NCBI GenBank assembly: GCA_029239675.1 | Contig: JARBUM010000002.1 | Location: forward strand, 62,001 to 126,000 | Length of the DNA stretch: 64,000 bases | Origin: Pelosinus sp. | Lineage (GTDB): Bacteria > Bacillota > Negativicutes > DSM-13327 | Direction of reading: 5' to 3' | Shown: positions 35,407 through 50,222 of the stretch, piece by piece | Layout of the letters: each line of letters starts with the position of its first letter | Position numbering within the stretch: the first letter of the stretch is position 1 | Position numbers and translations under genes: made by a program | The notes under the pieces: model-generated | Databases searched by the model: none | Seen by the model: the letters and a program-made list of their open reading frames with translations, nothing else | Told to the model about the DNA's origin: nothing

Positions 35407-36936
35407 TTAATAAATTTTCAATAAACCAACCGTAGCTTCTACGTCTTCAACTAATTTACCTCCAGCAATTAAATCATGAAGGTTTTTGATATCCGGTGCT
35501 GGTATCCGGTCTTCATCCAAATGCGGTATGATATTGCGAATCGTTTGATGCGCTCTAGCAGTACCATCTCCTGGTGTAAGCGGCGCCAGAAAATCGATAC
35601 CTTGTACAGCTGCTAGCATTTCAATGGCTAGCACATTGCAGACGTTATCCAAGATTTCTCTAGCTTGACGAGCAGCAATAGTACCCATACTGACATGATC
35701 TTCCTGGTTAGCTGAAGTTGGAATAGAGTCGGCACTAGCCGGATGCACCAGAACTTTATTCTCCGATACCAATGCAGCTGCAACATATTGCGTAATCATC
35801 AGACCGGAGTCAACCCCCGGAAAAGCTGTTAAAAATGCTGGCAGTTCGCTTAAATGTACATCCAATAGACGATTGGTACGCCGTTCGGAAATATTACCTA
35901 GTTCAGCAATTGCTAACTTAAGATAATCCATAACCAAAGCTATAGGCTGACCATGGAAATTCCCACCAGAAATGGCTTCGCCTGTTTCTGGCATGATAAG
36001 CGGATTGTCCGTCGCCGCATTAATTTCGATAGTCAAAGTTTCCTCCGCACGCCTAAGTGCGTCCTTAGAAGCACCATGTACTTGTGGCACACAGCGCAGC
36101 GAGTAAGCATCCTGTACCTTTTTGCAGTTAATATGGGAAGCAATGATGGCACTATGTGCGGTTAGGCTCAGCATATTTTGGGTAGTCGCCATCTGGCCGA
36201 TATGCGCTCTAACCTGACTGATCCGCGTATCAAAAGCTGATCTGGTACCTTTTAAGGCTTCTACGCTTAATGCTGCTGCAATGTCTGCTGCCTTCATCAG
36301 ATTGACGGTATCATGCCAGACAATGGTGCCAACCGCCGTCATAATTTGCGTACCGTTGATCAACGCCAGCCCTTCCTTGCCACTTAATACAATCGGCTCC
36401 AAGCCGCAAGCTTTTAAGGCTTCAGCACCTGTTATCAACTGACCGTTTAAATACGCTTCACCTTCTCCCAGCATAACCAATACCATATGAGAAAGCGGAG
36501 CTAAATCGCCACTGGCGCCGACTGATCCTTTAGCTGGTATCGCAGGACAGATGCGTTTATTGAGCATGCTTATAAGCATTTCTACCGTTGACAGCCTTAT
36601 CCCCGAATAACCTTTTGCCAGTGAATTGGCTCTAAGCATCATAGCTGAGCGGACAATGTCCTCGGATAAATGTTCGCCTACACCAGTAGCATGGCTTAAA
36701 ATCAAATTACGCTGCAGTTTCGCCCGTTCGTCTTTTGAAATAAAGATAGTACTGAAATCACCAAACCCAGTTGAAATACCATAAACAGGTTTTTCTTCGT
36801 CCATTATTTTATCAACAATTCTTCTACTGGCGATGATCTGCTCACGACCTTGATCACTGAGCTTGACTTCTTCATTGTTGCGCGCTACTTTTATCACATC
36901 TTCTAATGTTAAAGAATTTCCATCTAATACTATCAT
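35407..36936 (-). CDS. hutH: histidine ammonia-lyase
   Basis: A 509-aa enzyme. The Ala-Ser-Gly that forms the MIO cofactor is in SVGASGDLAPLSH (about 143-155). The Tyr active-site region YGISTGFGDF, NGTQIM and the conserved QVHGASKDALRR are present. It eliminates ammonia from L-histidine to give urocanate, the first step of the pathway. GGAGGC precedes ATG 36936. Last gene of the cluster, 36 bp after the permease. Confidence 0.98.
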   Translation of the reverse strand: MIVLDGNSLTLEDVIKVARNNEEVKLSDQGREQIIASRRIVDKIMDEEKPVYGISTGFGDFSTIFISKDERAKLQRNLILSHATGVGEHLSEDIVRSAMMLRANSLAKGYSGIRLSTVEMLISMLNKRICPAIPAKGSVGASGDLAPLSHMVLVMLGEGEAYLNGQLITGAEALKACGLEPIVLSGKEGLALINGTQIMTAVGTIVWHDTVNLMKAADIAAALSVEALKGTRSAFDTRISQVRAHIGQMATTQNMLSLTAHSAIIASHINCKKVQDAYSLRCVPQVHGASKDALRRAEETLTIEINAATDNPLIMPETGEAISGGNFHGQPIALVMDYLKLAIAELGNISERRTNRLLDVHLSELPAFLTAFPGVDSGLMITQYVAAALVSENKVLVHPASADSIPTSANQEDHVSMGTIAARQAREILDNVCNVLAIEMLAAVQGIDFLAPLTPGDGTARAHQTIRNIIPHLDEDRIPAPDIKNLHDLIAGGKLVEDVEATVGLLKIY

Positions 36937-36972: not shown

Positions 36973-38409
36973 CTATTTAGCAATCTCTTCTGCTTTTTGC
37001 TCACGCTTGCTGTGAATTAAAATATAATACAGATAAATACCTGCAATAATTGGCAAGCCTGTATAAAGGACAATCTGCTGCCCTTCAATGAAAGCTAAAC
37101 TGGCGATAATACAAATATTCAAGATAATTGCCACAATTGGTAAGGTGGGATATAAGGGTGTCCGAAAGACCAAATCTTTCAAGTCGCCGCCAATTTCCAG
37201 AAAGTGTTTGCGGAAATTAATCTGGCACCAAGAAATGACAATCCAAATCAAGCAACCAGTTAAACCTACACTGGACATTAACCATATATAGACGGTATCG
37301 GCTGCATATTCACTGGTCAACAGTGATAATGCAGATAATACTAGGGTTAAAAATATTCCATTAATGGGAACGCCTCCCGAATTTAGATGACCCAACCATT
37401 TTGGTGCATGCCCGTCTTTAGACATTGACCACAATAATCGTGAACAAACATAAAGCGCTGAATTACTGGCTGATAACGCAGAAGTCAGTACAACAAAACT
37501 CATGATATCCTTTGCAATTGGAATACCGATACGGCCAAATACATATGCAAAGGGACTTTCTAATACGCCTGCTTCCTTATAAGGAATAGTTGCACCTAGT
37601 ACAATAATTGCCAACACATAAAACACAATGATTCTGAAGACAACACCTTTAATAACCTTAGGCACATTTTTACCGGGATCTTCACATTCACCAGCTGCCA
37701 CTCCCACCAGTTCCGATCCCTGGAAGGAATATACTACTGTAATCATAGTTAAAAATAATGCCCAACCACCATTTGGGAATAATCCAGCTCCTGTATTAAA
37801 ATTAGAAAATCCAATAGCTCCCTCGTTGCCAACAGTACCAAACATCAATCCAGCACCCGCAAGAATAAATGCAATAATAGCGGCAACTTTGATCCCAGCA
37901 AACCAAAACTCAGTTTCACCATAAACCTTTACCGAAATCAAGTTCAGAACAGTTACCAATACGGCAAATAATACACACCAGATCCAAATGGATACACCAG
38001 GAAACCACAGAGCCATAATAATAGCTGAAGCGGTAAAGTTAGCGGCAATACAGACTGCCCAGTTAATCCAATACAACCACCCTACCGTAAATCCCACACC
38101 CGGAGAAATAAATTTCAATGCGTAGCTTTGGAATGACCCTGATACCGGCATTGCCACTGCCAGCTCGCCTAAGCATAGTAAAGCTAAATACATGACCATA
38201 CCGCCGAACAGAAAAGCCAACACAGCACCAACTGGTCCAGCTTCACTTACCACTTGCCCAGCACCCAAAAACAACCCCGTACCAATAGTACCACCAATTG
38301 AAATCATCATCATATGCCGCGATTTCAAACCACGATTAAGACCCTTTTTCTCCGGTACCAATTCTTCCATATTTACTGTCGGTTTCGTCGGATTTGTCAG
38401 TGTTGTCAC
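36973..38409 (-). CDS. amino-acid permease, AAT family, probable histidine transporter
   Basis: A 478-aa protein with about twelve membrane helices. The first conserved motif is MMMISIGGTIGTGLFLGAGQV and the second is GELAVAMPVSGSFQSYALKFISPG, as in the LysP/HutT/ProY branch of the APC superfamily. Placed between fchA and hutH in an uninterrupted operon, it likely imports histidine (inference from context). Start is GTG 38409 with GGAGGG upstream. Distinct from the permease at 14303. Confidence 0.88.
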   Translation of the reverse strand: MTTLTNPTKPTVNMEELVPEKKGLNRGLKSRHMMMISIGGTIGTGLFLGAGQVVSEAGPVGAVLAFLFGGMVMYLALLCLGELAVAMPVSGSFQSYALKFISPGVGFTVGWLYWINWAVCIAANFTASAIIMALWFPGVSIWIWCVLFAVLVTVLNLISVKVYGETEFWFAGIKVAAIIAFILAGAGLMFGTVGNEGAIGFSNFNTGAGLFPNGGWALFLTMITVVYSFQGSELVGVAAGECEDPGKNVPKVIKGVVFRIIVFYVLAIIVLGATIPYKEAGVLESPFAYVFGRIGIPIAKDIMSFVVLTSALSASNSALYVCSRLLWSMSKDGHAPKWLGHLNSGGVPINGIFLTLVLSALSLLTSEYAADTVYIWLMSSVGLTGCLIWIVISWCQINFRKHFLEIGGDLKDLVFRTPLYPTLPIVAIILNICIIASLAFIEGQQIVLYTGLPIIAGIYLYYILIHSKREQKAEEIAK

Positions 38410-38487: not shown

Positions 38488-39111
38488 TCATATTTTTTCA
38501 TCTGCAATTTTTACTAGTTGAGCCATCAGCGCTTCCGAACGAGCTATAACTCTCTCAATCTTGCCTGTCATGTCGACAACAAAATCAATGTCTTTAATTG
38601 AACCCAGATTAATTCGTACATTATAGATCGCTGACCACATGGCAGCCTGTGCCATTCTTCCAGCTACCGCTGCATCACTGGCCGCATTAGCGTTGCCGAT
38701 AGAAAGAATTTTCCCCGATAATTCCAATACTTCCAGACAAACTCTGGCAACCTGAAAAGGTAGATTGGATGCAACTTTGAGTGCTTCTTGAATGGTTTCG
38801 CTGCGGACGTTTTTTTCTTCTTCAGTGCTCTTGGCCATCTTATAGGCCTTCATCACCTTATTAAAGGCCTCTGTATCTTCATCAATGTATTTTCCCAAAA
38901 CCGCCAAACACACTTCTAAGTCCAAAGCTAGCTTCCTGCTTTCTTCATGCACAGATTCATATTTTGCACTACTTATTGTCAGGTTTCCTACCATAATCCC
39001 CAGCGCTGCTCCGATGGCACCCACTAAGGCGGCTGCACTGCCACCTCCTGGTGCCGGAGAGTCTGATTTTAGTTCTGCTAAAAATCCCGCGATGCTTTTG
39101 TCAGTTAGCAT
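38488..39111 (-). CDS. fchA: formiminotetrahydrofolate cyclodeaminase
   Basis: A 207-aa protein of the FtcD cyclodeaminase/FchA family: SDSPAPGGGSAAALVGAIGA near residues 16-35 is the signature. It converts 5-formimino-THF to 5,10-methenyl-THF and ammonia. It lies 37 bp downstream of ftcD, so formimino transfer and deamination are carried by two separate proteins here. In mammals they are fused. Confidence 0.95.
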   Translation of the reverse strand: MLTDKSIAGFLAELKSDSPAPGGGSAAALVGAIGAALGIMVGNLTISSAKYESVHEESRKLALDLEVCLAVLGKYIDEDTEAFNKVMKAYKMAKSTEEEKNVRSETIQEALKVASNLPFQVARVCLEVLELSGKILSIGNANAASDAAVAGRMAQAAMWSAIYNVRINLGSIKDIDFVVDMTGKIERVIARSEALMAQLVKIADEKI

Positions 39112-39148: not shown

Positions 39149-40039
39149 TTATATATTTTCTTCCATAATCTGTTTACGATTGAACCCTTCTAGACGTAAG
39201 TAATAGTCCGCTGCATCAATCATTGCCTGCATTGGTACCAACCCTACAATTTCACTGCCGATAATATTCACACCATAACGAGCTGCTTCATTTTTTACGG
39301 TTTCAAAAACTCGGTGGAGCGGCGTGCCTTCATAATTAATCATGTTAATGGTTACCTGTGCTACTTTGCGCTCTTCAATCATAATGCCCATAGCTCGGCA
39401 GTATTTGAAACCGCCTTTGGCCTCACGGATGGCATTGGCAATTTTCTTAGCTATTGCAACATCGCTGGTACTTAAATTAATGTTATAAGCAATTAAGCAC
39501 TGTCTGGCTCCCACTACCGTGGCACCAGCTCTCGGATGCATTTTTGCCGGACCATAATCCGGCTTTCTTTCAGGCTCACTAATTGTTATCTTTAAACCTT
39601 CATACTGCCCTTTACGAACGTCCGGCAAATTCTTACGCTCGGACTTTTTAGCAGCGGCTTCATACATATATACCGGGATGTCTAGTTTTTCAGCAATTTC
39701 TTTGCCTAATTCATTGGCAAGTTCCACACACTCTTCAAGGCTGACTCCCCGCACAGGAATAAACGGGATCACATCAGTGGCCCCCATACGTGGATGCTCA
39801 CCATGATGTTGTTCCATGTCAATCAATTCTGCAGCCTTCGCACAAGAGGCAAAGGCTGCCTGTTTAGCCGCTGTCGGCTCACCGACAAATGTTACCACTG
39901 ATCGGTTGTGACTGGCATCCGATTGTACATCTAACAGTTTGACCCCTTCTACTTTTTTCACTTCATTCACGATGGCCTCTATCACTTCAGAACGACGTCC
40001 TTCACTAAAGTTAGGTACACATTCTACTAGTTTGCTCAT
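39149..40039 (-). CDS. ftcD: glutamate formimidoyltransferase
   Basis: A 296-aa protein with the N-terminal formiminotransferase signature VECVPNFSEGRR and the HPRMGATDVIPFIPVRG region containing the catalytic His. Together with FchA it moves the formimino group from N-formimino-L-glutamate to tetrahydrofolate, releasing glutamate. GGAGGTAAT precedes ATG 40039. A repeat-like element separates it from hutI (40143-40190). Confidence 0.96.
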   Translation of the reverse strand: MSKLVECVPNFSEGRRSEVIEAIVNEVKKVEGVKLLDVQSDASHNRSVVTFVGEPTAAKQAAFASCAKAAELIDMEQHHGEHPRMGATDVIPFIPVRGVSLEECVELANELGKEIAEKLDIPVYMYEAAAKKSERKNLPDVRKGQYEGLKITISEPERKPDYGPAKMHPRAGATVVGARQCLIAYNINLSTSDVAIAKKIANAIREAKGGFKYCRAMGIMIEERKVAQVTINMINYEGTPLHRVFETVKNEAARYGVNIIGSEIVGLVPMQAMIDAADYYLRLEGFNRKQIMEENI

Positions 40040-40142: not shown

Positions 40143-40190
40143 ATAAGTGCGACTAAATTCAGGTAGAGTTAAAACTCCATCTAAGTCAAG
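40143..40190. repeat. copy of a dispersed palindromic element
   Basis: AAGTGCGACTAAATTCAGGT, then AGAGTTAAAACTCCATCT: the AGGTAGAGTT/AACTCCATCT core forms a hairpin. The right end overlaps the hutI stop codon. Related copies are at 52549-52611 and 58770-58826 (see finding). Confidence 0.5.
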
Positions 40191-41455
40191 TCTGCTTTAT
40201 CTACAACCACTTGCCCTTTTTTAATAACTTTATCCACTATATCCATCCCAACATGATAGCTCAGAAATAAATGAGATGGGTATTTCAGCATAATGATATC
40301 AGCCTGCTTGCCCCGTTCTAAACTGCCAATACGATCTGCCCGTCCGACAGCAGCAGCCCCATTCAGCGTCAACGCCGTCAAAATTTCTGCAGGCGATAGT
40401 CTAAGCTGAATTGCCGCCAATGCGATCAGCATAGGAATTGAATGGCTAAAACAGCTTCCTGGATTATAGTCAGTTGCTAGTGCTACTGCTCCGCCACTGT
40501 CAATTATCGTTCTAGCTCTGGCGTATTGTTCCCTTAGACAAAATGCCGTTATTGGTAATACTGTCGCCACTACACCTCGCGCCGCCATGTCAGCAATTCC
40601 CTTATCCGATGCCTGCAGCAAATGATCTGCAGAAACAGCTGCAAGCTCAGCTGCAAGTTCAGCACCGCCAAAGGACACAATCTCATCGGCATGAATTTTA
40701 CTTTTCAGCCCTAGGGCACCTGCGGCCTGCAGGATTTTCCGCGTCTGCTCTACCGAGAATACGCCCTTCTCGCAAAACACATCACAAAACTCTGCGATTC
40801 CTTGCCCTACCACTGCAGGCAGAACTTTTTCTACAATGAATGCGACATAATCATCTTCACGGCCACGATACTCAGGTGGCACAGCGTGTGCCCCCATAAA
40901 AGTTGGCACAACATCAACAGCATGATTATTGTTTAATTCTCCCATAGCCTTTATTTGTCGTAGTTCAGTATCTAAATCTAGGCCATAGCCACTCTTGCCT
41001 TCTACAGTAGTAACTCCCATGGCTAGCATAGCATCTAGCCTTTTTGATGCAGTCTGCACCATTGCATCATACTCCATGGATTGCGTAGCTTCGACGGTAT
41101 TTAAAATACCACCACCACGTTCTAAGATTTCCAAATAAGGTGTACCGCTAAGCCGCCAAAAAAACTCTTCTGGACGATAACCACCAAACACAAAATGTGT
41201 GTGGGAATCTACAAAACCAGGGATTACGCTACAGCCTGAGGCATCAATAATTTCCAAATTTTTCTCATTACCTACTGGTAAATCAGCAGTTGCACCCACC
41301 CACTCAATAATACCATTTTTTACCATTATTGCACCATCTGTGATTTTCTTTAGATGATTCATATCTGCACCTTTTTTTGCTACTGTTCCAGTATTGGTAA
41401 CAATTTCGGCTGCATGCTTGATTAGCAACGATCTATTGCCGCTTCTATTGTGCAA
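40181..41455 (-). CDS. hutI: imidazolonepropionase
   Basis: About 424 residues of the amidohydrolase superfamily. Metal-binding HTH is in VDSHTHFVFGGYRPEE, the later metal His is in KIHADEIVSFGGAEL, and the conserved Asp is in VALATDYNPGSC. It hydrolyses imidazolonepropionate to formiminoglutamate. Start is TTG 41455 because GGGGGAG lies 5 bases upstream; the ATG at 41515 overlaps hutU and has no site. Confidence 0.95.
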   Translation of the reverse strand: MHNRSGNRSLLIKHAAEIVTNTGTVAKKGADMNHLKKITDGAIMVKNGIIEWVGATADLPVGNEKNLEIIDASGCSVIPGFVDSHTHFVFGGYRPEEFFWRLSGTPYLEILERGGGILNTVEATQSMEYDAMVQTASKRLDAMLAMGVTTVEGKSGYGLDLDTELRQIKAMGELNNNHAVDVVPTFMGAHAVPPEYRGREDDYVAFIVEKVLPAVVGQGIAEFCDVFCEKGVFSVEQTRKILQAAGALGLKSKIHADEIVSFGGAELAAELAAVSADHLLQASDKGIADMAARGVVATVLPITAFCLREQYARARTIIDSGGAVALATDYNPGSCFSHSIPMLIALAAIQLRLSPAEILTALTLNGAAAVGRADRIGSLERGKQADIIMLKYPSHLFLSYHVGMDIVDKVIKKGQVVVDKADLT

Positions 41456-41492
41456 AACATCTCCCCCTTTAGCACTTTTGTTCCTGTAAATG

Positions 41493-43520
41493 CTATTTAA
41501 AAACCGTCGATACAACTTTATCTATCAGTTCGTCCGCTGGTATATAAGGAATGGTCACATGTGCCTTACCTGCATAATCGCGGTTAAATTCTATAATAGT
41601 TTCAATTGAATGTTCATTTCTTGCCCATGACCGACGGGCTACACCTCCAATGACATCCCACAGCATGGCCGAATGCAAAATCTCATCCACTCGCTCACTG
41701 CCATCCAAAACCATGCCAAAACCGCCATTGATCGATTTACCGATACCCACACCTCCACCGTTATGCAATGCTACTAGGCTCATCCCCCTGGCAGCATTTC
41801 CGGCAAAACATTGTACTGCCATATCTGCCATCACATTGCTACCATCTTTGATATTCGACGTTTCGCGAAAGGGTGAATCGGTACCGCTGACATCGTGGTG
41901 GTCACGCCCCAACATGACTGGGCCAATCTCACCTTTACGCACCATTTCATTAAACCGCAAAGCAATATCCTTACGTCCCTCTGCATCCTGGTATAAAATG
42001 CGTGCCTGGGTTCCTACAACCAGTTGATTCTTCTCAGCATCGCGGATCCAAATATAATTATCCCGATCTTGGCCACGCCGTTCAGGATTAATGCATTGCA
42101 TTGCCGCTTGGTCAGTCTTTTGTAAATCATCTGGTTTACCGCTCAAGCAAACCCAACGGAACGGTCCATACCCGTAATCAAACAATTGCGGTCCCATAAT
42201 GTCTTCCACATAAGAAGGAAAAATAAAACCATCTTTTTCGTCACGCCCGTTTTTAGCAATTTCTTTAACTCCAGCATCATAGATTGCCTTCATAAATGCA
42301 TTGCCGTAATCAAAAAAATACGTACCTCTTTCTACCAGCTCTTTTATCAGTAGAAAATGGCGCTGTAGACTTTTATTGACCAATTCATGAAATTTGCTGC
42401 GATTATCACTCAAGAGTGCGGTTCGCTCCTCAAAGTTCAGCCCTTGTGGACAATAACCTCCGTCATAGGCCACATGGCAGGAAGTCTGATCAGATAGTAG
42501 GTCAATATGCTTGTGATTGACTACTGCATATTCCAATAAATCCACAATGTTGCCATGATAAGCTATGGATAACGCCTTGCCCGCAGCCTGATATTCCTCC
42601 GCTATCTTAAATATTTCCTCAAGATCATCGCTGCATTTACCAACCCACCCCTGTTCTAGCCGTGTCTGAATGCGCGAGTCGTCTACCTCAGCAATAATGC
42701 CTACTGCACCAGCGATTTCTATCGCCTTTGGTTGTGCGCCACTCATACCGCCCAATCCGGAGGAAACAAACAACTTCCCATGCAAATCATCGTGAGGTGC
42801 AACGCCCAATTTAATCCTGCCTGCAGTCAATAAGGTGTTAAAGGTTCCATGTACAATTCCCTGGGGACCAATGTACATCCAGCCACCTGCCGTCATCTGC
42901 CCATAGTTGGCAACCCCCATCTGCTCGGCTACTTCCCAATCATCCTGATTATCAAACATCCCCACCATCAAGGCATTGGTGATAATTACCCTAGGCGCTT
43001 CAGGTTTTGAAGGGAATAATCCAAGGGGATGGCCCGACTCTACGACTAAGGTTTGATCTTGAGTCATAACTTCCAGATATTTTTTAATCAGCTGATACTG
43101 CATCCAATTTTGGCATACACTGCCAGTTTCCCCATAGGTGACCATTTCATAAGGATACAGTGCGACATCATGATTCAGATTATTATCAATCATAACCTGA
43201 AAGGCCTTGCCTTCAATACAGTTACCTTTATATTCATCCAGCGGTTTGCCGTAAATTTTTTCTGTTGGCATATACCGATAAGCGTAAATTCGTCCATAGG
43301 TTTTTAATTCTTCCATAAATTCGCCAGCCACTTGACTATGAAGTTCTTCTGGAATGTATCGCAGAGCATTTTTCAGTGCCACCTTACTTTGTTCAATAGT
43401 CAACCGAAAACCTCTATCTGGTGCACGGCGTACTCCTTTTTTAAATACGGGTGGCTCTGGTAATACACTGTCCAACTTAATCGTCATGGCACAATTTATC
43501 CCTTTGTTATCAATCATCAT
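41493..43520 (-). CDS. hutU: urocanate hydratase
   Basis: A 675-aa protein of the longer urocanase type (compared with about 555 in Bacillus subtilis). Hallmarks: NAD-binding GLGGMSGAQPKAIEIAGA, CSDDLEEIF region, and the C-terminal GWCARSWARNEHS-like stretch (GGVARRSWARNE). It hydrates urocanate to imidazolonepropionate. AAGGAGATATAACG precedes ATG 43520 (a second ATG follows immediately). It has its own promoter with SARP-type repeats (43619-43653). Confidence 0.97.
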   Translation of the reverse strand: MMIDNKGINCAMTIKLDSVLPEPPVFKKGVRRAPDRGFRLTIEQSKVALKNALRYIPEELHSQVAGEFMEELKTYGRIYAYRYMPTEKIYGKPLDEYKGNCIEGKAFQVMIDNNLNHDVALYPYEMVTYGETGSVCQNWMQYQLIKKYLEVMTQDQTLVVESGHPLGLFPSKPEAPRVIITNALMVGMFDNQDDWEVAEQMGVANYGQMTAGGWMYIGPQGIVHGTFNTLLTAGRIKLGVAPHDDLHGKLFVSSGLGGMSGAQPKAIEIAGAVGIIAEVDDSRIQTRLEQGWVGKCSDDLEEIFKIAEEYQAAGKALSIAYHGNIVDLLEYAVVNHKHIDLLSDQTSCHVAYDGGYCPQGLNFEERTALLSDNRSKFHELVNKSLQRHFLLIKELVERGTYFFDYGNAFMKAIYDAGVKEIAKNGRDEKDGFIFPSYVEDIMGPQLFDYGYGPFRWVCLSGKPDDLQKTDQAAMQCINPERRGQDRDNYIWIRDAEKNQLVVGTQARILYQDAEGRKDIALRFNEMVRKGEIGPVMLGRDHHDVSGTDSPFRETSNIKDGSNVMADMAVQCFAGNAARGMSLVALHNGGGVGIGKSINGGFGMVLDGSERVDEILHSAMLWDVIGGVARRSWARNEHSIETIIEFNRDYAGKAHVTIPYIPADELIDKVVSTVFK

Positions 43521-43618: not shown

Positions 43619-43653
43619 ATTATATTACAGATACTGTCAAAACATCGTCAAAA
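43619..43653 (-). promoter_or_regulatory. hutU promoter with SARP-type direct repeats
   Basis: On the minus strand: TGACGAT (43650-43644), 4 bp, TGACAGT (43639-43633), 8 bp, TATAAT (43624-43619). The repeats recur every 11 bp. No normally placed -35 box exists. The same arrangement is at 46887-46921. A further partial copy (AGACGAT, 43692-43686) lies upstream. Confidence 0.65.
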
Positions 43654-43717
43654 ACCATTCTCTAACTATCAGACGAATGTCCGGCATCGTCTAAATGACA
43701 CACCAGACACTTCATTC

Positions 43718-44728
43718 TCATCTGGCCAGCCCTTTCAGACGACAGAGGGTATCAACTACGGCAAAAATGATTACTTTTGCCAAGCTGGCGGTTGCCCGAT
43801 CATGATCAAACCGGGGTGACACTTCGGCAATATCAAATCCAACCACTTTCTGTGTGCGCAGTACATGTTTTAAATATTTCAGCACTATTTCCGGATGTAG
43901 CCCCAAGGGCTGTGGCGCACTGACACCTGGAGCAAAAGAAGAAGCAAATACATCTGCGCAAATGGTTACGTAAAGATTAGGTACCGACTGCATGAATGAA
44001 TCGAGTTTTTCCATGATATATTCGTCATTTTGCATAGAAATATCACCCGCTAATAAATAATCCGCTCCTAATTGCTGGGACGTTTTAAACAATTCAAGTG
44101 TATTGCTGCTGCGTTGGATGCCCAAGCAAAAATAATGGAACACTTCTTCCCGCTGGCAAGTATCATCGGAGATCTGCCGGAACATCGTCCCAGAATTCCC
44201 TTCACCTGCAAATGGCCGGAGGTCAAAGTGCGCATCAAAATTTAAAATGCCCAAGTCGCATTTGCCATCCTTTTGCCGCAAGAAATCTGCTTGTCCCCGA
44301 AAATGTCCCAAAGTAGTTTCATGCCCGCCACCCATAACAAGAGGAAACAATCCGGCCTGCCGGAGACAAAAAACTGCTTGTTCCAGCGCTGTCTGACTTT
44401 TCATTAGCTCCCCATCTGTGCAGATAATATTTCCGGCATCAAACAAGTGCACCTCCGAAGAAAAAGAGCAAGGTAAGTTAGCAAGTTCGCGTCGTATTCC
44501 CTCCGGTCCTGAAGAAGCGCCCTGGCGTCCTTTATTCCGCCGGATGCCCTCATCACAGCAAAATCCCAGCAAAGCAAAGCCCATTCTACCAGTGAATTTA
44601 GATAATGTCTGCCGTAAATCCAAAGGTTTTATCCATTGGTGCCACCGGAAAGCATCAAAATTTTCACTACTATCAACTCGCCCCTGCCATATATCAAAAT
44701 CCGTTACCTCATATCTATCCTGAAACAT
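43718..44728 (-). CDS. hutG: formimidoylglutamase, arginase-family
   Basis: A 336-aa ureohydrolase. Metal ligands: GGGHETTLGH, NFDAHFDLRPF, and VTICADVFASSFAPGVSAPQP. In the last motif, the usual DxD is CxD (ICAD), a form I believe occurs in part of the HutG group. It hydrolyses formiminoglutamate to glutamate and formamide, an alternative to FtcD/FchA. GGAGGATAAAT precedes the ATG. About 200 bp and a separate promoter follow before hutU. Confidence 0.88.
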   Translation of the reverse strand: MFQDRYEVTDFDIWQGRVDSSENFDAFRWHQWIKPLDLRQTLSKFTGRMGFALLGFCCDEGIRRNKGRQGASSGPEGIRRELANLPCSFSSEVHLFDAGNIICTDGELMKSQTALEQAVFCLRQAGLFPLVMGGGHETTLGHFRGQADFLRQKDGKCDLGILNFDAHFDLRPFAGEGNSGTMFRQISDDTCQREEVFHYFCLGIQRSSNTLELFKTSQQLGADYLLAGDISMQNDEYIMEKLDSFMQSVPNLYVTICADVFASSFAPGVSAPQPLGLHPEIVLKYLKHVLRTQKVVGFDIAEVSPRFDHDRATASLAKVIIFAVVDTLCRLKGLAR

Positions 44729-44810
44729 ATTTATCCTCCTGCTCAGTCTTTGATTGCCTCTTATATAGCAACTTACCTTATCTTCACTTGATCATACAAC
44801 TTACATTTGA

Positions 44811-46478
44811 TTAAAATAATCCAGTAATTTTACCATCATTATCAATATCCATTACTTCTGCTGCTGGTTTCTTGGGAAGTCCCGGCATAGTCATGATATC
44901 TCCAGTAATAACCACTAGAAACCCTGCGCCAGCAGCTATACGTATTTCTCTGACCATCATTGTAAATGCCTCTGGGCGGCCAAACCTTGTTGCATCATCA
45001 GATAGAGAATATTGTGTCTTAGCAATGCAAACTGGTGTTTTATCTAGGCCTATCGCCGTTAACTCCTGAATGGTCTTTTCGGCTGCCTTGCTATAATTGA
45101 CAGCATTAGCACCATAAATTTCTTTGGCAATCACACTAATTTTTGTCTTAACAGGTAACGTTTCATCATACAGAAACTTAGCAGATTTAGTTTCCTTAAA
45201 CATGTCAAGAAGTTGCTCGGCCAACTCTGTACCTCCGGCACCTCCCTCGGCCCATACTTTTGAAATCGTCACCGTAACCCCAAGTGTCTTACACTGCTCC
45301 CTGACAAACGCCAGTTCTTCTTCTGTATCAGTCGGGAAAGCATTAATGGCAACGACTGTAGGTAAATTAAACTTATGCATATTTTCAATATGTTTTTTAA
45401 GATTTTCCATTCCTCGCCCTAATGCCTGCGGATTTACTTTTGTCAGCTCAGTTTTGGCAACTCCTCCGTGTGCCTTAAGTGCCCTTACCGTGGCAACAAG
45501 CACCACCGCATCCGGCATAAATCCGGCAAAGCGGCATTTAATATCAATAAACTTCTCCGCCCCTAGGTCCGCACCAAAACCAGCTTCAGTAATCAACACA
45601 TCTGATAATTTTAACGCAAACTTTGATGCCATCACACTATTGCATCCATGAGCGATATTTGCAAATGGTCCTCCATGCACAAAAGCTGGCGTTTTTTCTA
45701 GTGTTTGTACCAAATTAGGTTTAATGGCATCTTTGAATAGGAGCGTTAATGCACCGCTAACTTTTAAATCATCTGCCCTAATTGGCTGATTGTCATAGGT
45801 ATAGCCCACAATGATCTTGCCAATTCGTTGTTTCATATCATCAAGATCTTTCGCCAAACACAAAATAGCCATTAGTTCTGACGCAACGGTGATGTCAAAA
45901 CCACTTTCTCGTGGTACTCCATTGGTCTTTCCGCCAAGCCCGAGTACAATATGACGTAGTGTCCGGTCATTAAGGTCGATTACCCTCCTCCAAGTCACGC
46001 GACGCGGATCAATCCCAAGCACATTACCTTGCTGAATATGGTTATCAATGATCGCTGACAGTAAGTTATGCGCCGTAGTCACAGCATGAATATCGCCGGT
46101 AAAATGCAAATTAATATCTTCCATAGGCACAATCTGCGCATATCCACCACCGGCGGCACCACCCTTCATGCCAAAACAAGGCCCCAAAGACGGTTCGCGC
46201 AAGGCAATCATTGCTTTCTTCCCTAATCTCCGAAAAGCATCACCTAATCCAACAGTTGTGGTCGTTTTCCCCTCACCAGCCGCCGTCGGATTGATAGCAC
46301 TAACCAGCACCAATTTACCGTTAGGATTCTGTTTAATTTTCTCCCATACCGCTAGCGATATTTTAGCCTTGTATTTCCCATACTGTTCGATATCATCTTC
46401 ACTTAAACCAAGATCAGCCGCGATTTGGATAATTGGCTGCATTTTTGCTTCCTGGGCAATTTCCACATCACTTTTCAT
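44811..46478 (-). CDS. fhs: formate--tetrahydrofolate ligase
   Basis: A 555-aa enzyme. P-loop-like [16 protein letters not shown] (about 64-78) binds [24 protein letters not shown] is the family hallmark. It forms 10-formyl-THF from formate and THF with ATP, and can run in reverse to yield ATP and formate from folate-bound one-carbon units. In this cluster the second direction is the sensible one (inference). Start ATG 46478 follows GAGGTGATTGTA; the upstream GTG at 46487 falls within that site. Confidence 0.97.
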
Positions 46479-46501
46479 TACAATCACCTCATTAAAATAT
46501 T

Positions 46502-46840
46502 CTACGTTCTTACATAATGGGGCATTTCAACTGGGATTACCATGGATAGTTCTATCAAACCGGCATACTCCCCATCCTGATACCATGGTGTTTGATAAAC
46601 CAGCTTCTTTACACCTTTTTTCTCAATTGTATAGCTATTGGCAGTTTTAGTTTCAATAATCTCGGTGATCTTTTTGCAGGCACAGTCAGAATGAATATCT
46701 TTCACATTTTTTCCAATTAAAGTTCTTCCACCATATTTCTCAAAAATTTCCACCGACCTATCATTCATTTCAATGATGTTGCCGATTTTATCCGTAACGG
46801 TAACTGCAAAAGGCAATTCCTTTACCCATCTGCTAGACAT
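46502..46840 (-). CDS. stand-alone PAS-domain protein
   Basis: A 112-aa single PAS fold: [27 protein letters not shown] then [17 protein letters not shown] Cys pair (CAC) sits in the middle; no output domain follows. The gene is first in the fhs-hutG block, 23 bp before fhs, and under the SARP-type promoter. It may sense a redox or metabolite signal and act through protein contact, but nothing in the sequence proves that. AAGGAGG precedes ATG 46840. Confidence 0.85.
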
Positions 46841-46886
46841 ATACTTGATCCTCCTTACTTTTAAAATGAGTTGTTTACTTATCTGA

Positions 46887-46921
46887 ATTTTACAAAAAGA
46901 ACTGTCTAAATATCGTCAAAT
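46887..46921 (-). promoter_or_regulatory. PAS-fhs-hutG promoter with SARP-type direct repeats
   Basis: On the minus strand: TGACGAT (46918-46912), 4 bp, AGACAGT (46907-46901), 8 bp, TAAAAT (46892-46887). The register and spacing are identical to the hutU promoter. The transcript start would be about 40 bp before the PAS gene. Confidence 0.65.
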
Positions 46922-46982: not shown

Positions 46983-47042
46983 AAATAGACAATAAGACTG
47001 TTGCAAAATTATCTTTCATTTTGCAACAGTCTTATTGTCTAT
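46983..47042 (-). terminator. terminator with a 26-bp perfect stem
   Basis: The arms start AATAGACAATAAGACTGTTG and are fully complementary around an 8-base loop. It ends the SARP-like regulator transcript and isolates it from the hut operon. Confidence 0.85.
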
Positions 47043-47129
47043 TCCGTAGTTTAGCGAACCTATCTGACAACTTTTACGGCTCTTAAGATTCCAACAATTT
47101 AATATCTCATAAAGCCGCCAATTGATAGC

Positions 47130-50100
47130 TTACGCCTTACCCTTTACTGCATATTCGCCTATCATTTCTTCCAGAGATCTAAGTTCAGCCGCCCTGCCCA
47201 TTTTATCGAACACTTTTCGTGCCCGCTTATAATATTCCATCGCGGGCAAAGTCAAATAACCCTCAAATACTTCAGCGACTTCTTTTTCCTGCTCCATCAG
47301 CAGTTTTATTTCTGCTTCAGTACGAAAAATCAGCCCACTTTGATATTGATCATTATATCTTTTTAAAAAATCCTTTGCCTGCTCTAAATATCGCTTTGCT
47401 TCATAAGGGCGGTGTTGTCTGACCGCAATCAATGCCAATACACAATTGAGGGTGCAATATCCGCGCAGACACCAATAACCCTTTTGGTCGCCAAACCCTT
47501 CTGCTACCGACAAGGCATCTGTAAGATATGCACTAGCCTTCACATAATCATTGAGCTGAAAAGCGGTATAACCGGCATTAATATAAAATAAAGCAACGCC
47601 TTCGCTGATATTTTTACGTCCTGCTATTCTGGTAGCCTGCTCATAGTGATACAGAGCCGCTTTATAATCAAAACTGTCCCGCCGCAAATCGCCAATGTAA
47701 TTGTTAGCTGCTGCAATGGTAAAAACATAAAAACTATTGCGGACAGCCAGTCTTTTAAACAAAGTCAGCGATTCGCGGTAATAATTTTCAGCTTGTTGAT
47801 ACTGCCCCTTGAGTGCACAGGCAATCCCCAAAAATCTTAATGCTGTGGCTTTTTTCTCCGAAAGCTCATCATGTCCAGTCAAATGCAATAGCTTTAAGGC
47901 AAATTCCCGTATCAAGTGCGCTTTACGAGTCTGAATTCCGCAATAAATAATTTGTTGATACCCTTTTATCTGATATTCCCTGAGGTTTTTCTTTGAAGCC
48001 AACCGCAGCATCTGGTGCATTAATCTCAAACCCACCAGGTGTTCTCCCCGCCAAATATGATAGCGACCAGCCATTTCCCAATAAGCAACTTTATAAGCAT
48101 CCAATCGCTCATCGGTTGTTGTTCTCGTCAATAATAACTCCAGTAAGTCCTTTATTTTCTCCAGATAAGTAGTAATCTGGCTCCTACTTTCCCTAAAGTC
48201 AAGATATCCCGTTGGATAGTAGCGATTCAATTCCGGAAACATCTCATATTGCGGGCAAAAATATTTTTCAGCCATTTTAATAGTATAATCCAGCATTTTT
48301 ATCTTTTCATCGGCATTTGTGTAATGATATAAAATATGTTCATAGATGTCTTTGCTTTGCATGCCACACTGCAACTGCTGTTCTAAATACAGTGCTGTTC
48401 GCTTATGTAATATCCGTTGCCTGATCGCTGACATTTGACTGTACACATAATCACGGATCTGCAAATTGTAAAACTTATAAACAGAATCACCTGTGTCTGA
48501 ATCAAGTTCTTCCATTAGCAACTGTTTCTGCTGTAGTTCTTCTAGCGCTTCAACTAGCTCAAATTCATTTATTGTTGAAACAGCCAGCAGTACCTCATAA
48601 TTGGTATTATTAAAAAATACTGAAGCAATTTCGAGAATCTTCCTACCATTCTCAGAAACATTGGCTGTACGCTCTTTTAATACGCTATTCAGCCTGATTG
48701 AACCGTGGCTGATATCTTTACCAGCTGCAATCAAATTCAGGCATTCAATCAAAAATAAAGCATTTCCTCCCGTATAATCGTATAATCTAGACTGCATTTC
48801 TTTGCTAATTCCAGGTAAGCGCAAAGCTGACAGTTGCACCACGTCTTGTGCACTGAACCGTCCAATTCCTAAGTATTCCAGCATACTACTGCGTTCAAAG
48901 TCTTCCATTGTTTTGTCAATTTGCTGCAAATATTCCGTATGGCAAGTTGCTATGCAGATAATATTCGTTCCATGTACACGCAATAACTGCCACAACAATA
49001 ACCACCCTTGTTTGTCCATCCAATGAATATCTTCAATTAATAGAATAGTCTTCTTCAGATTAGCGACTTTTCCCAGAACCTCGCACATGATCTCTTCAAC
49101 CATCGTTGTGCTGAATTTATAGGCATCTACCGACATTTCTGTCTGTAAAAGTTTTTCGCTAATTTTCGCCGTTGGAAAGACATAAGCAATAACCTGCTGC
49201 CAAAGCGGCGGCAACTGAATATCGGCTTGCGCTAAAACGGTCATTACCTGTAAAAAAATAGTATTCCATGCTTTATATACATATTCAAATTCAGCCTGAT
49301 AACATTGGGTGCGAAAAACATTACTATTTTCTGTGGAAATAGTTGAGAAAAGCTGTTCAACAATTGCCGATTTACCAACACCTTGATCTCCCTGCAGGAG
49401 TATCAGTTGTCTGCTATGATCCTTTTGATAAAATTCAGTTAACCATAAACGCAATTGCTGTAGTTCTTTTTCTCTTCCGAAGAATCGTTGGTTGCCGAAT
49501 ATCTTGTCCTCAATTATTTTGTTGTTCTTCCGGTCTTTGATCCGTTTATAAATTTCCTGTGTCTTCGCGCTAGGTATCAGACCTAGATCCTGTGCCATCT
49601 TCCGTTCAAGTTCTCTATAAATTTCCATTACTTTATAAGAGTCTTCTTTTTCATAGATTTTCATCAGCACCCGATAAGCACTTTCATTATATTCATCCAG
49701 AGCAATCAAGTGCTTTAGGTATCGCTTTGCAGCTGTATAGTCTTTGTGGTTCATTAGCTTTATGATAAATTTAGTCAAACAGGTTATACTATCTTTCCTA
49801 AACTGTTCACTTTTTTCGGTAACCCACTCATCAAAACTAGTTGCGTCCTTATAATAAAAGCCTTCTAGAAATTCGCCCGTATTTCTTTCTAAAAATTTTG
49901 CAACATCGGATACCGTTAATAACTCCAATTCTGTCGGTACCACTAACTTGGGATTTAATGCAATCTTCGAGCGCGATGAAGTGATCAGCAAATCCACCGA
50001 AAACATCTTTTTTAGCAAATATACCGTATTTCGCAGATTTCTCTTAGCTGCATTATCTCCCATGTCCCCCCAAAAGAGTGCTGCCAAACTCTCACGTGTA

Positions 50101-50222
50101 GCTTCACCGGTAACCAAGAGATAGTATAGTAAGGCTTCCATTTTAGCAAACGGAAACACCACCTTTTGGTCATTCCAATAAACTGCCGGCTTCCCAAATA
50201 ATATCGTCCGTAATTTAGTCAA
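47130..50222 (-). CDS. AfsR/SARP-like transcriptional regulator (winged helix, BTAD, AAA ATPase, TPR)
   Basis: A 1030-aa protein. An OmpR-type winged helix (about 1-95; ESLAALFWGDM, AAKRNLRNTVYLLKK) is followed by a bacterial transcriptional activation domain (about 95-240; TPR-like BTAD helices such as YLKHLIALDEYNESAYRVLM). Then comes an AAA/NB-ARC-like ATPase (about 250-480) with Walker A GDQGVGKSA and Walker B ILLIEDIHWMD. Helical TPR repeats cover about 640-1000. This is the large SARP/AfsR architecture. Start is TTG 50222. It sits upstream of the hut cluster, whose promoters carry SARP-type repeats. Confidence 0.88.
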   Translation of the reverse strand: MTKLRTILFGKPAVYWNDQKVVFPFAKMEALLYYLLVTGEATRESLAALFWGDMGDNAAKRNLRNTVYLLKKMFSVDLLITSSRSKIALNPKLVVPTELELLTVSDVAKFLERNTGEFLEGFYYKDATSFDEWVTEKSEQFRKDSITCLTKFIIKLMNHKDYTAAKRYLKHLIALDEYNESAYRVLMKIYEKEDSYKVMEIYRELERKMAQDLGLIPSAKTQEIYKRIKDRKNNKIIEDKIFGNQRFFGREKELQQLRLWLTEFYQKDHSRQLILLQGDQGVGKSAIVEQLFSTISTENSNVFRTQCYQAEFEYVYKAWNTIFLQVMTVLAQADIQLPPLWQQVIAYVFPTAKISEKLLQTEMSVDAYKFSTTMVEEIMCEVLGKVANLKKTILLIEDIHWMDKQGWLLLWQLLRVHGTNIICIATCHTEYLQQIDKTMEDFERSSMLEYLGIGRFSAQDVVQLSALRLPGISKEMQSRLYDYTGGNALFLIECLNLIAAGKDISHGSIRLNSVLKERTANVSENGRKILEIASVFFNNTNYEVLLAVSTINEFELVEALEELQQKQLLMEELDSDTGDSVYKFYNLQIRDYVYSQMSAIRQRILHKRTALYLEQQLQCGMQSKDIYEHILYHYTNADEKIKMLDYTIKMAEKYFCPQYEMFPELNRYYPTGYLDFRESRSQITTYLEKIKDLLELLLTRTTTDERLDAYKVAYWEMAGRYHIWRGEHLVGLRLMHQMLRLASKKNLREYQIKGYQQIIYCGIQTRKAHLIREFALKLLHLTGHDELSEKKATALRFLGIACALKGQYQQAENYYRESLTLFKRLAVRNSFYVFTIAAANNYIGDLRRDSFDYKAALYHYEQATRIAGRKNISEGVALFYINAGYTAFQLNDYVKASAYLTDALSVAEGFGDQKGYWCLRGYCTLNCVLALIAVRQHRPYEAKRYLEQAKDFLKRYNDQYQSGLIFRTEAEIKLLMEQEKEVAEVFEGYLTLPAMEYYKRARKVFDKMGRAAELRSLEEMIGEYAVKGKA

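Follow-up and report, generated by a model that had tools for sequence, protein, structure and literature searches.

Two promoters of the histidine utilization (hut) genes of Pelosinus sp. (contig JARBUM010000002.1, positions 62,001 to 126,000; this stretch of 64,000 nucleotides is called the window here) carry a pair of direct repeats just upstream of the -10 element and lie next to the gene of a large regulator of 1030 amino acids (aa). Judging from sequence comparisons, we consider it probable (about 0.88) that the two sites are operators of this adjacent regulator, which is of the Streptomyces antibiotic regulatory protein (SARP) type and would activate histidine fermentation, and that the same pair of regulator and operator is common to many Firmicutes with hut genes. 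What was seen directly comprises the two sites with their conservation and spacing, the co-occurrence of site and regulator, and the domains of the protein.

Direct repeats at the hut promoters of the window

The elements concerned are the following.

43644..43650, minus strand: upstream heptamer TGACGAT of the hutU promoter (sequence; site kept in 8/8 genus genomes)
43633..43639, minus strand: downstream heptamer TGACAGT of the hutU promoter, 11 bp from the upstream one (sequence and genus conservation)
43619..43624, minus strand: -10 element TATAAT of the hutU operon, 8 bp past the downstream heptamer (assigned by sequence)
46912..46918, minus strand: upstream heptamer TGACGAT of the PAS-fhs-hutG promoter (sequence and genus conservation)
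46901..46907, minus strand: downstream heptamer AGACAGT of the PAS-fhs-hutG promoter (sequence and genus conservation)
46887..46892, minus strand: -10 element TAAAAT of the PAS-fhs-hutG operon, 8 bp past the downstream heptamer (assigned by sequence)
47130..50222, minus strand: SARP-type regulator, 1030 aa (Pfam, hhalign to a Streptomyces BTAD protein, AfsR matches in PDB)

On the minus strand the hutU promoter reads TGACGAT-gttt-TGACAGT-atctgtaa-TATAAT (43650 to 43619) and the PAS-fhs-hutG promoter TGACGAT-attt-AGACAGT-tctttttg-TAAAAT (46918 to 46887), which can be summarized as TGACGAT-N4-(T/A)GACAGT-N8-TA(T/A)AAT. The original prediction, made from the letters of the window, had described heptamers 11 bp apart with 8 bp to the -10 at both promoters, no normally placed -35, and no such pair before other genes of the window, and all of this holds. 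The heptamer period is 11 bp (a 4-bp gap) in both promoters and the downstream heptamer lies 8 bp from the -10, while TTGACG is 21 bp and the second TTGACA or TAGACA 10 bp away from it, spacers with which neither repeat is able to act as a normal -35. When up to three mismatches were allowed, the window contained eight matches in total versus a chance mean of 7.38; two were exact, at the hut promoters, and the other six had three mismatches each.

A scattering of the motif over the genome, named in advance as a result that would speak against the prediction, was not seen for the exact repeat pair, which occurs twice in the 3.88-Mb genome, both times at these hut promoters. The single match with one mismatch (C66) was rejected as a further site, as it sits within a dehydratase-like open reading frame. 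Matches with up to two mismatches numbered 44 versus 64 for the reversed control pattern, so the looser genome matches represent background; a wider regulon on the exact motif is thus unsupported in the window genome, the 2-mismatch matches being no commoner than those of the control. By eye, a long inverted repeat, perhaps a terminator, was noted between the stop codon of the regulator and the PAS promoter (window 46984-47043).

Conservation in the genus Pelosinus

Seven other genomes of the genus encode an orthologue of the 1030-aa protein at 79-81% identity, the copy in G009 having an in-frame stop. As far as the fetched stretches extend, the genus orthologues are followed downstream by PAS, fhs, hutG and hutU and then by hutI, ftcd and further genes; in G003 and G004 fhs is reduced to a C-terminal remnant of 36 and 27 residues, respectively (tblastn; L033 7150-7257, L034 7118-7198). 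The PAS gene is adjacent to the regulator in the window, G007, G008 and G009 and lies 3.5 to 4.8 kb from it in G003-G006. In G003 (L033 8196-10927) sporulation-like genes, SpoVA-type by eye, occupy the interval, and the gap in G004-G006 is similar in size to that of G003.

A search of the eight genomes with TGACGWT-N4-WGACANT-N7,8-TANAAT returned 16 matches, exactly two per genome and all at hut promoters, compared with no match of the reversed control pattern in the same genomes. The motif is thereby conserved in the hut promoters of the relatives, as had been expected, with both sites present in 8/8 genomes. Pelosinus fermentans JBW45 (L154) also has both sites and was not counted as independent of G003. 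Searches at order and family level covered an identical set of 10 genomes.

Domain layout of the 1030-aa regulator

The regulator begins with a presumed winged helix (residues ~1-110), and Pfam matches then mark a BTAD (~124-228), an AAA_16 ATPase (246-418) and a TPR part (~763-957), so that the C-terminal ATPase and TPR of the AfsR-type layout were both found, as AAA_16 and TPR families. The protein is the sole match to PF03704 (BTAD) in the window genome at E 0.001; its N-terminal part scores 37.7 bits against a cut-off of 22.1, and the domain is present in 20/20 aligned relatives (PF03704, E up to 1). When a 20-row profile of residues 1-246 was compared by hhalign with a BTAD regulator of 237 aa that is encoded on a Streptomyces plasmid, residues 8-226 aligned with a probability of 97.7 (E 1.5e-12, 21% identity). 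Since this span covers the stretch preceding the BTAD, the place of the SARP winged helix, the region looks homologous, and an N-terminal winged helix is presumed by homology. Among other PDB entries, the family profile matches the AfsR chains 8k60, 8jke and 8hvr via the BTAD part; several TPR and PPR repeat proteins outscore them.

A smaller frame of 275 aa in G041 (L152, C1:356675-357400), close to a hut-linked large regulator, resembles a small SARP in that its match to the profile is confined to the DNA-binding and BTAD part.

Association of site and regulator across the class

The class sample comprised 300 genomes, 63 of them with a hutU match, and the 60 with long-type hutU were examined; the three left out (G017, G029, G102) have distant hutU-like proteins only. 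G126, which has fragments of the regulator and has kept the site, was set apart in neither group. The remaining genomes comprised 35 with the regulator (including G073 and G081, where the regulator match is split over two reading frames) and 24 without it (including G016 and G255, with only 135 and 481 bp available upstream). A strict site, [ACT]GACG[AT]T-N4-[ACT]GA[CT]-N9..12-TA...T within 300 bp upstream of hutU, was present in 29/35 genomes with the regulator versus 1/24 without it (Fisher p 7e-10, with no correction for kinship), and outside the genus Pelosinus it was found in 21 of the 27 regulator-bearing class genomes. Two hundred dinucleotide shuffles of the same 35 stretches yielded the site in 0.02 genomes on average and in at most 1. 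The spacing was specific too, as the half-sites alone occurred in 29/35 genomes at gap 4 and in 0-5 at gaps 1-3 and 5-11. An enumeration of 4-mer/gap/3-mer dyads that did not take the motif as input ranked TTTGACG first and placed GACG-N7-GAC within the top 25.

Six genomes were missed by the strict pattern. Four of them (G059, G085, G103, G195) have a G at position 1 of the first half-site. In G094 the cluster starts with the regulator gene, and a strict site precedes that gene, while G024 has a looser site (TGACTAT) before hutG; with any base allowed at position 1, the count becomes 33/35 with the regulator versus 1/24 without. Of the 36 class sites, 24 lie 7 bp and 11 lie 8 bp from the -10, and one was scored at 10, so that the 8 bp of the original prediction applies to the window sites, but 7 bp is more frequent in the class. 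In one family (L062) two operator copies were noted before hutU (3971 and 4093); they are separated by 122 bp, and the -10 of the distal copy is weak.

Co-occurrence might have arisen from the proximity of the two genes. In genus g41 of family f25, however, hutU and the regulator lie on different contigs in G059, G103, G107, G156 and G195, and in G162 they are more than 570 kb apart on the same contig. All six of these unlinked genomes keep the site before hutU (G107, G156 and G162 in the strict form; G059, G103 and G195 with a G as its first base), which mere hitch-hiking of the promoter with a neighbouring regulator gene would not explain. At the one g41 regulator locus fetched (G156, L078), the regulator is beside hutH. 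G126 is a natural case of activator loss with the operator retained, since only fragments of the regulator (C2:829162-829796; L113, L145, L150) remain beside hutU at 830006 and the operator is intact.

The same data bear on two other explanations of the repeat. TTGACG and TTGACA look like a -35 box, and the TTGAC sequence could be read as such a box with a long spacer, or as the site of an alternative sigma factor, in which case no activator would be needed. We regard this as very improbable, because the spacers of 21 and 10 bp do not fit, none of the 36 class sites (0/36) has a -35 box (5-of-6 match, 16-18 bp from the -10), the second half-site is conserved at exactly 11 bp, and the pair is missing from 76/77 hutU upstream regions without the regulator (23/24 in the class and 53/53 in the phylum sample described below). 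Alternatively, as the site is part of the core promoter, where polymerase could be blocked, the regulator might be a repressor or a purely architectural protein. The SARPs described in the available parts of the literature are activators, however, and the lack of a -35 box at every one of the 36 sites calls for an activator, which makes a repressor or a purely architectural role very improbable.

Distribution beyond the class

The 80 named Firmicutes loci considered here are the best 80 of 239 confirmed in one regulator-profile scan of species genomes, and hut genes played no role in their choice. Carriers among these 80 include Clostridium, Lutispora, Geosporobacter, Thermohalobacter, Peptoniphilus and Acidaminococcus as well as Veillonella, Vagococcus, Enterococcus, Neobacillus and others. 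A cluster hut or folate gene is present in 62 of the loci. Across all 80, the strict site occurs 55 times at gap 4 versus 0-4 times at every other gap from 0 to 12, and 36 of the 55, spread over 30 of those 62 loci, precede a hut or folate gene by at most 350 bp. With a looser pattern, 106 sites were counted at gap 4 versus 7 to 20 at other gaps, and before hut or folate genes 42/62 loci had one at gap 4 versus 0 to 2 loci elsewhere. Likewise, of the 105 relatives with a length of 800 aa or more that were collected from all sources (106 rows including the window, 99 of them different), 73 have hutU, hutI or hutH in the fetched locus, as does the window. The original prediction had spoken of a SARP-type activator in a Firmicute; this is supported for Pelosinus, and the scope proved to be wider, with many Firmicutes included.

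In a phylum sample of 398 genomes drawn evenly, nine had a long regulator match (E under 1e-70). Eight of these have hutU no more than about 9 kb from the regulator, and in the remaining one, G598, hutU gave no match. With the window genome set aside, seven regulator-bearing genomes formed the test set. Of the 74 genomes with hutU, 13 were not fetched (G512 and G587, which have fragments, and 11 with the short hutU type), and two more, G000 and G045, had been part of the class set. The controls were 43 loci without the regulator (from 42 genomes, G345 being represented twice, and one locus having ~330 bp upstream) and 10 short-type hutU loci.

Several results weigh against the proposed pair of regulator and operator. 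The strict site was found upstream of hutU in 0/7 regulator-bearing genomes of the phylum sample, as in 0/43 controls without the regulator and 0/10 with short-type hutU. The seven clusters contain a repeat built in the same way whose first half-site is less constrained, e.g. TTGACTTTCTTTTGACGGTATTTTTGTATAAT, so that the predicted heptamer stands for genus and class but gives way to GAC-N-N-T in more distant Firmicutes. A looser form, [N]GAC..T-N4-[N]GA[CT]...-N7,8-TATAAT-like, was present upstream of hutU in 6/7 of these genomes versus 0/53 controls, where the 6/7 is descriptive because the form was written after viewing the seven loci and the 0/53 is still a fair measure of specificity. In the seventh genome (G649) it precedes ftcd, the first gene there, and in the class it was found in 33/35 genomes with the regulator versus 1/24 without. 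Among the 62 named loci with a hut or folate gene, 32 have no strict site before such a gene and 20 lack the looser pattern as well. No hutU, hutI or hutH (at least 40% identity) was found in the locus of 32/106 regulators, some of which are on short contigs and some beside other genes. One class genome, G130, has the site and no regulator detectable by PF03704 (E 0.001) or the family profile. On the hutU tree only four independent pairs are available; on average, motif and regulator change together in 2.4 of them and in opposite directions in 0, and 1.6 show no difference, so that the pair test cannot reach significance. With respect to the protein, PF00486 (OmpR-type DNA-binding) is absent among the families listed for the N-terminal alignment, and it likewise misses the Streptomyces BTAD control protein; the NCBIfam AfsR model is not among the listed matches of the window protein, and two relatives score far below its cut-off. 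Taken together with co-occurrence beyond the genus, the specific 11-bp period and the BTAD in an AfsR-like domain order, the sequence data nevertheless support the predicted SARP-type activator.

Other genes preceded by the repeat

A Sporomusa-like paralogue clade (L063-L067), sister to the Pelosinus-type regulators, is located away from hut genes, and the genomes with these paralogues also have a separate hut-linked regulator. In L063-L065 the repeat lies before a neighbouring gene for an NCS1-type permease; it was not seen in L066 and L067. The presence of the repeat before non-hut genes in three of five non-hut paralogue loci suggests that it tends to follow the protein. This is relevant for the possibility that another regulator travelling with hut binds the repeats and the BTAD protein controls something else. 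The site in G130 and the position of the Sporomusa-like paralogues away from hut would fit such an arrangement, yet site presence tracks the regulator family even within family f23, where G138 and G054 have neither the site nor a match over most of the regulator (G138 carries another BTAD protein). In addition, the regulator is the only PF03704 match in the window genome, the paralogue loci L063-L065 carry the repeat by non-hut genes, and the 11-bp period and the position before the -10 match those of SARPs. A different binding protein is therefore unlikely, and the BTAD protein is preferred as the one that would bind.

Further putative targets lie beside related regulators elsewhere. In Dethiosulfatibacter (L198) the repeat precedes xanthine-dehydrogenase-like subunits and a BCCT transporter, in Clostridium akagii (L193) an allantoate-amidohydrolase-like M20 enzyme as well as hutU, and in Neobacillus (L189) FolD and FtcD-like genes, with FolC, a folate ECF component, a formate channel, a cyclodeaminase and fhs nearby. 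These targets suggest a common theme of formimino and purine catabolism. A tentative and rather doubtful extension would see SARP-type activation not as an antibiotic invention but as an old system of Firmicutes that serves one-carbon and formimino fermentations. The ATPase-TPR sensors might then detect a formimino compound shared by the breakdown of histidine and that of purines. Branches of the family might have left hut, taking the repeat operator with them, for gene sets of the xanthine-dehydrogenase-like, nucleobase-permease, allantoate-hydrolase-like and FolD/FolC/FtcD-like kinds.

Comparison with known systems

Two known regulators, HutP, an antiterminator, and HutC, a repressor according to the part of the literature available, act on the same pathway but are other proteins with other types of control. 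HisR resembles the present case as a regulator of histidine genes in Gram-positives derived by comparative genomics, with one Oscillibacter copy located by hutH; it differs in being described for histidine metabolism and transport, and the word SARP does not occur in the text (PMC9413887).

Closer parallels are offered by the SARPs, as far as the accessible portions of the cited papers describe them. What their targets have in common are direct repeats with a period of 11 or 22 bp, of which the 3' one is separated from the -10 by 8 bp, and in the AfsR complex two protomers sit side by side, with the upstream repeat of the box overlapping the -35 (PMC10936776). By analogy with this geometry, the regulator may act in the same way and replace the missing -35 contact on both hut promoters. 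AfsR of Streptomyces coelicolor shares with our regulator the order of DNA-binding part, BTAD, ATPase (NOD) and TPR, and its sites resemble the hut sites in that the spacer holds two direct repeats of 11 bp and the upstream repeat covers the place of the -35 (PMC10936776). The half-sites differ (GACG-T here, CGTT(T/C)ATCG for AfsR), and AfsR belongs to another phylum and to antibiotics, whereas the target here is amino acid catabolism. The small SARPs ActII-ORF4 and DnrI likewise use direct repeats of heptamers, which lie in or close to the -35 region and are typically separated by 4 bp, and small SARP genes are usually located within the cluster they control, as would be the case in Pelosinus; they differ in having no ATPase/TPR part and in serving actinomycete secondary metabolism (PMC10972967, PMC7040171). 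The SARP-LAL proteins PimR, SanG and PolR combine a SARP part with a large ATP-binding part, and the heptamers of PimR are 4 bp apart, but its operator does not overlap the -35 box and SARP-LALs belong to antibiotic clusters (PMC10972967).

In the parts available, a review (PMC10972967) and a research paper (PMC7040171) state that SARPs are exclusive to actinobacteria or actinomycetes, and the latter reports proteobacterial profile matches, mostly without an HTH or BTAD match. The published distribution (actinobacteria, secondary metabolism) thus does not cover the present case of Firmicutes and histidine catabolism. The difference is one of distribution, not of mechanism, and what we claim is a SARP-type protein, not a member of the actinobacterial family. 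Public records annotate BTAD proteins outside actinobacteria (Deinococcus and Sinorhizobium plasmids among others), so that the domain as such is no news elsewhere. Our search found no paper that describes histidine use under the control of a SARP or BTAD protein, with most subscription journals and regulon databases lying outside it, and priority is not established.

Genes of the two hut blocks

The genes downstream of the regulator in the window are listed below.

46502..46840, minus strand: PAS-like protein, 112 aa, first gene of the fhs-hutG block (PF08448 below cut-off; conserved in the genus)
44811..46487, minus strand: fhs, formate-tetrahydrofolate ligase (PF01268)
43718..44728, minus strand: hutG, arginase-family hydrolase (PF00491; role from context)
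41493..43520, minus strand: hutU, urocanase, first gene of the second operon (PF17391, PF01175, PF17392)
40181..41515, minus strand: hutI, amidohydrolase (PF07969, PF01979; role from context)
39149..40039, minus strand: ftcd, glutamate formiminotransferase (PF07837, PF02971)
38488..39111, minus strand: cyclodeaminase, fchA-like (PF04961)
36973..38409, minus strand: amino acid permease (PF00324)
35407..36936, minus strand: hutH, histidine ammonia-lyase (open reading frame; named by eye from its sequence)

No NCBIfam model matched the 112-aa PAS-like protein at E 0.01. A PAS-like protein of 49% identity (L074 4851-5171) adjoins a hut-linked regulator in another family.

Proposed mode of action

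From these observations we infer binding, activation and a signal as follows. Two protomers of the 1030-aa protein would sit side by side on the 11-bp direct repeats, at the place where sigma contacts the -35, and would hold RNA polymerase at these promoters, in which a good -10 is not accompanied by a usable -35. Activation would be gated by the STAND-type C-terminal ATPase and TPR part; gating by such a part has been proposed for AfsR and is known for MalT. The gating signal would come from histidine breakdown and could be histidine, urocanate or a formimino compound. In this manner one regulator may switch on both blocks, PAS-fhs-hutG and hutU-hutI-ftcd-fchA-permease-hutH.

Implications

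With the 1030-aa protein and the repeat, a concrete regulator and operator are proposed for histidine fermentation in Negativicutes, Clostridia and some Bacilli, among whose carriers are the gut genera Acidaminococcus, Veillonella and Peptoniphilus. The SARP mode of activation would thereby be taken outside the actinomycete antibiotic world. Because the pathway and its few intermediates are known, the signal of an AfsR-like ATPase-TPR part becomes a testable question.

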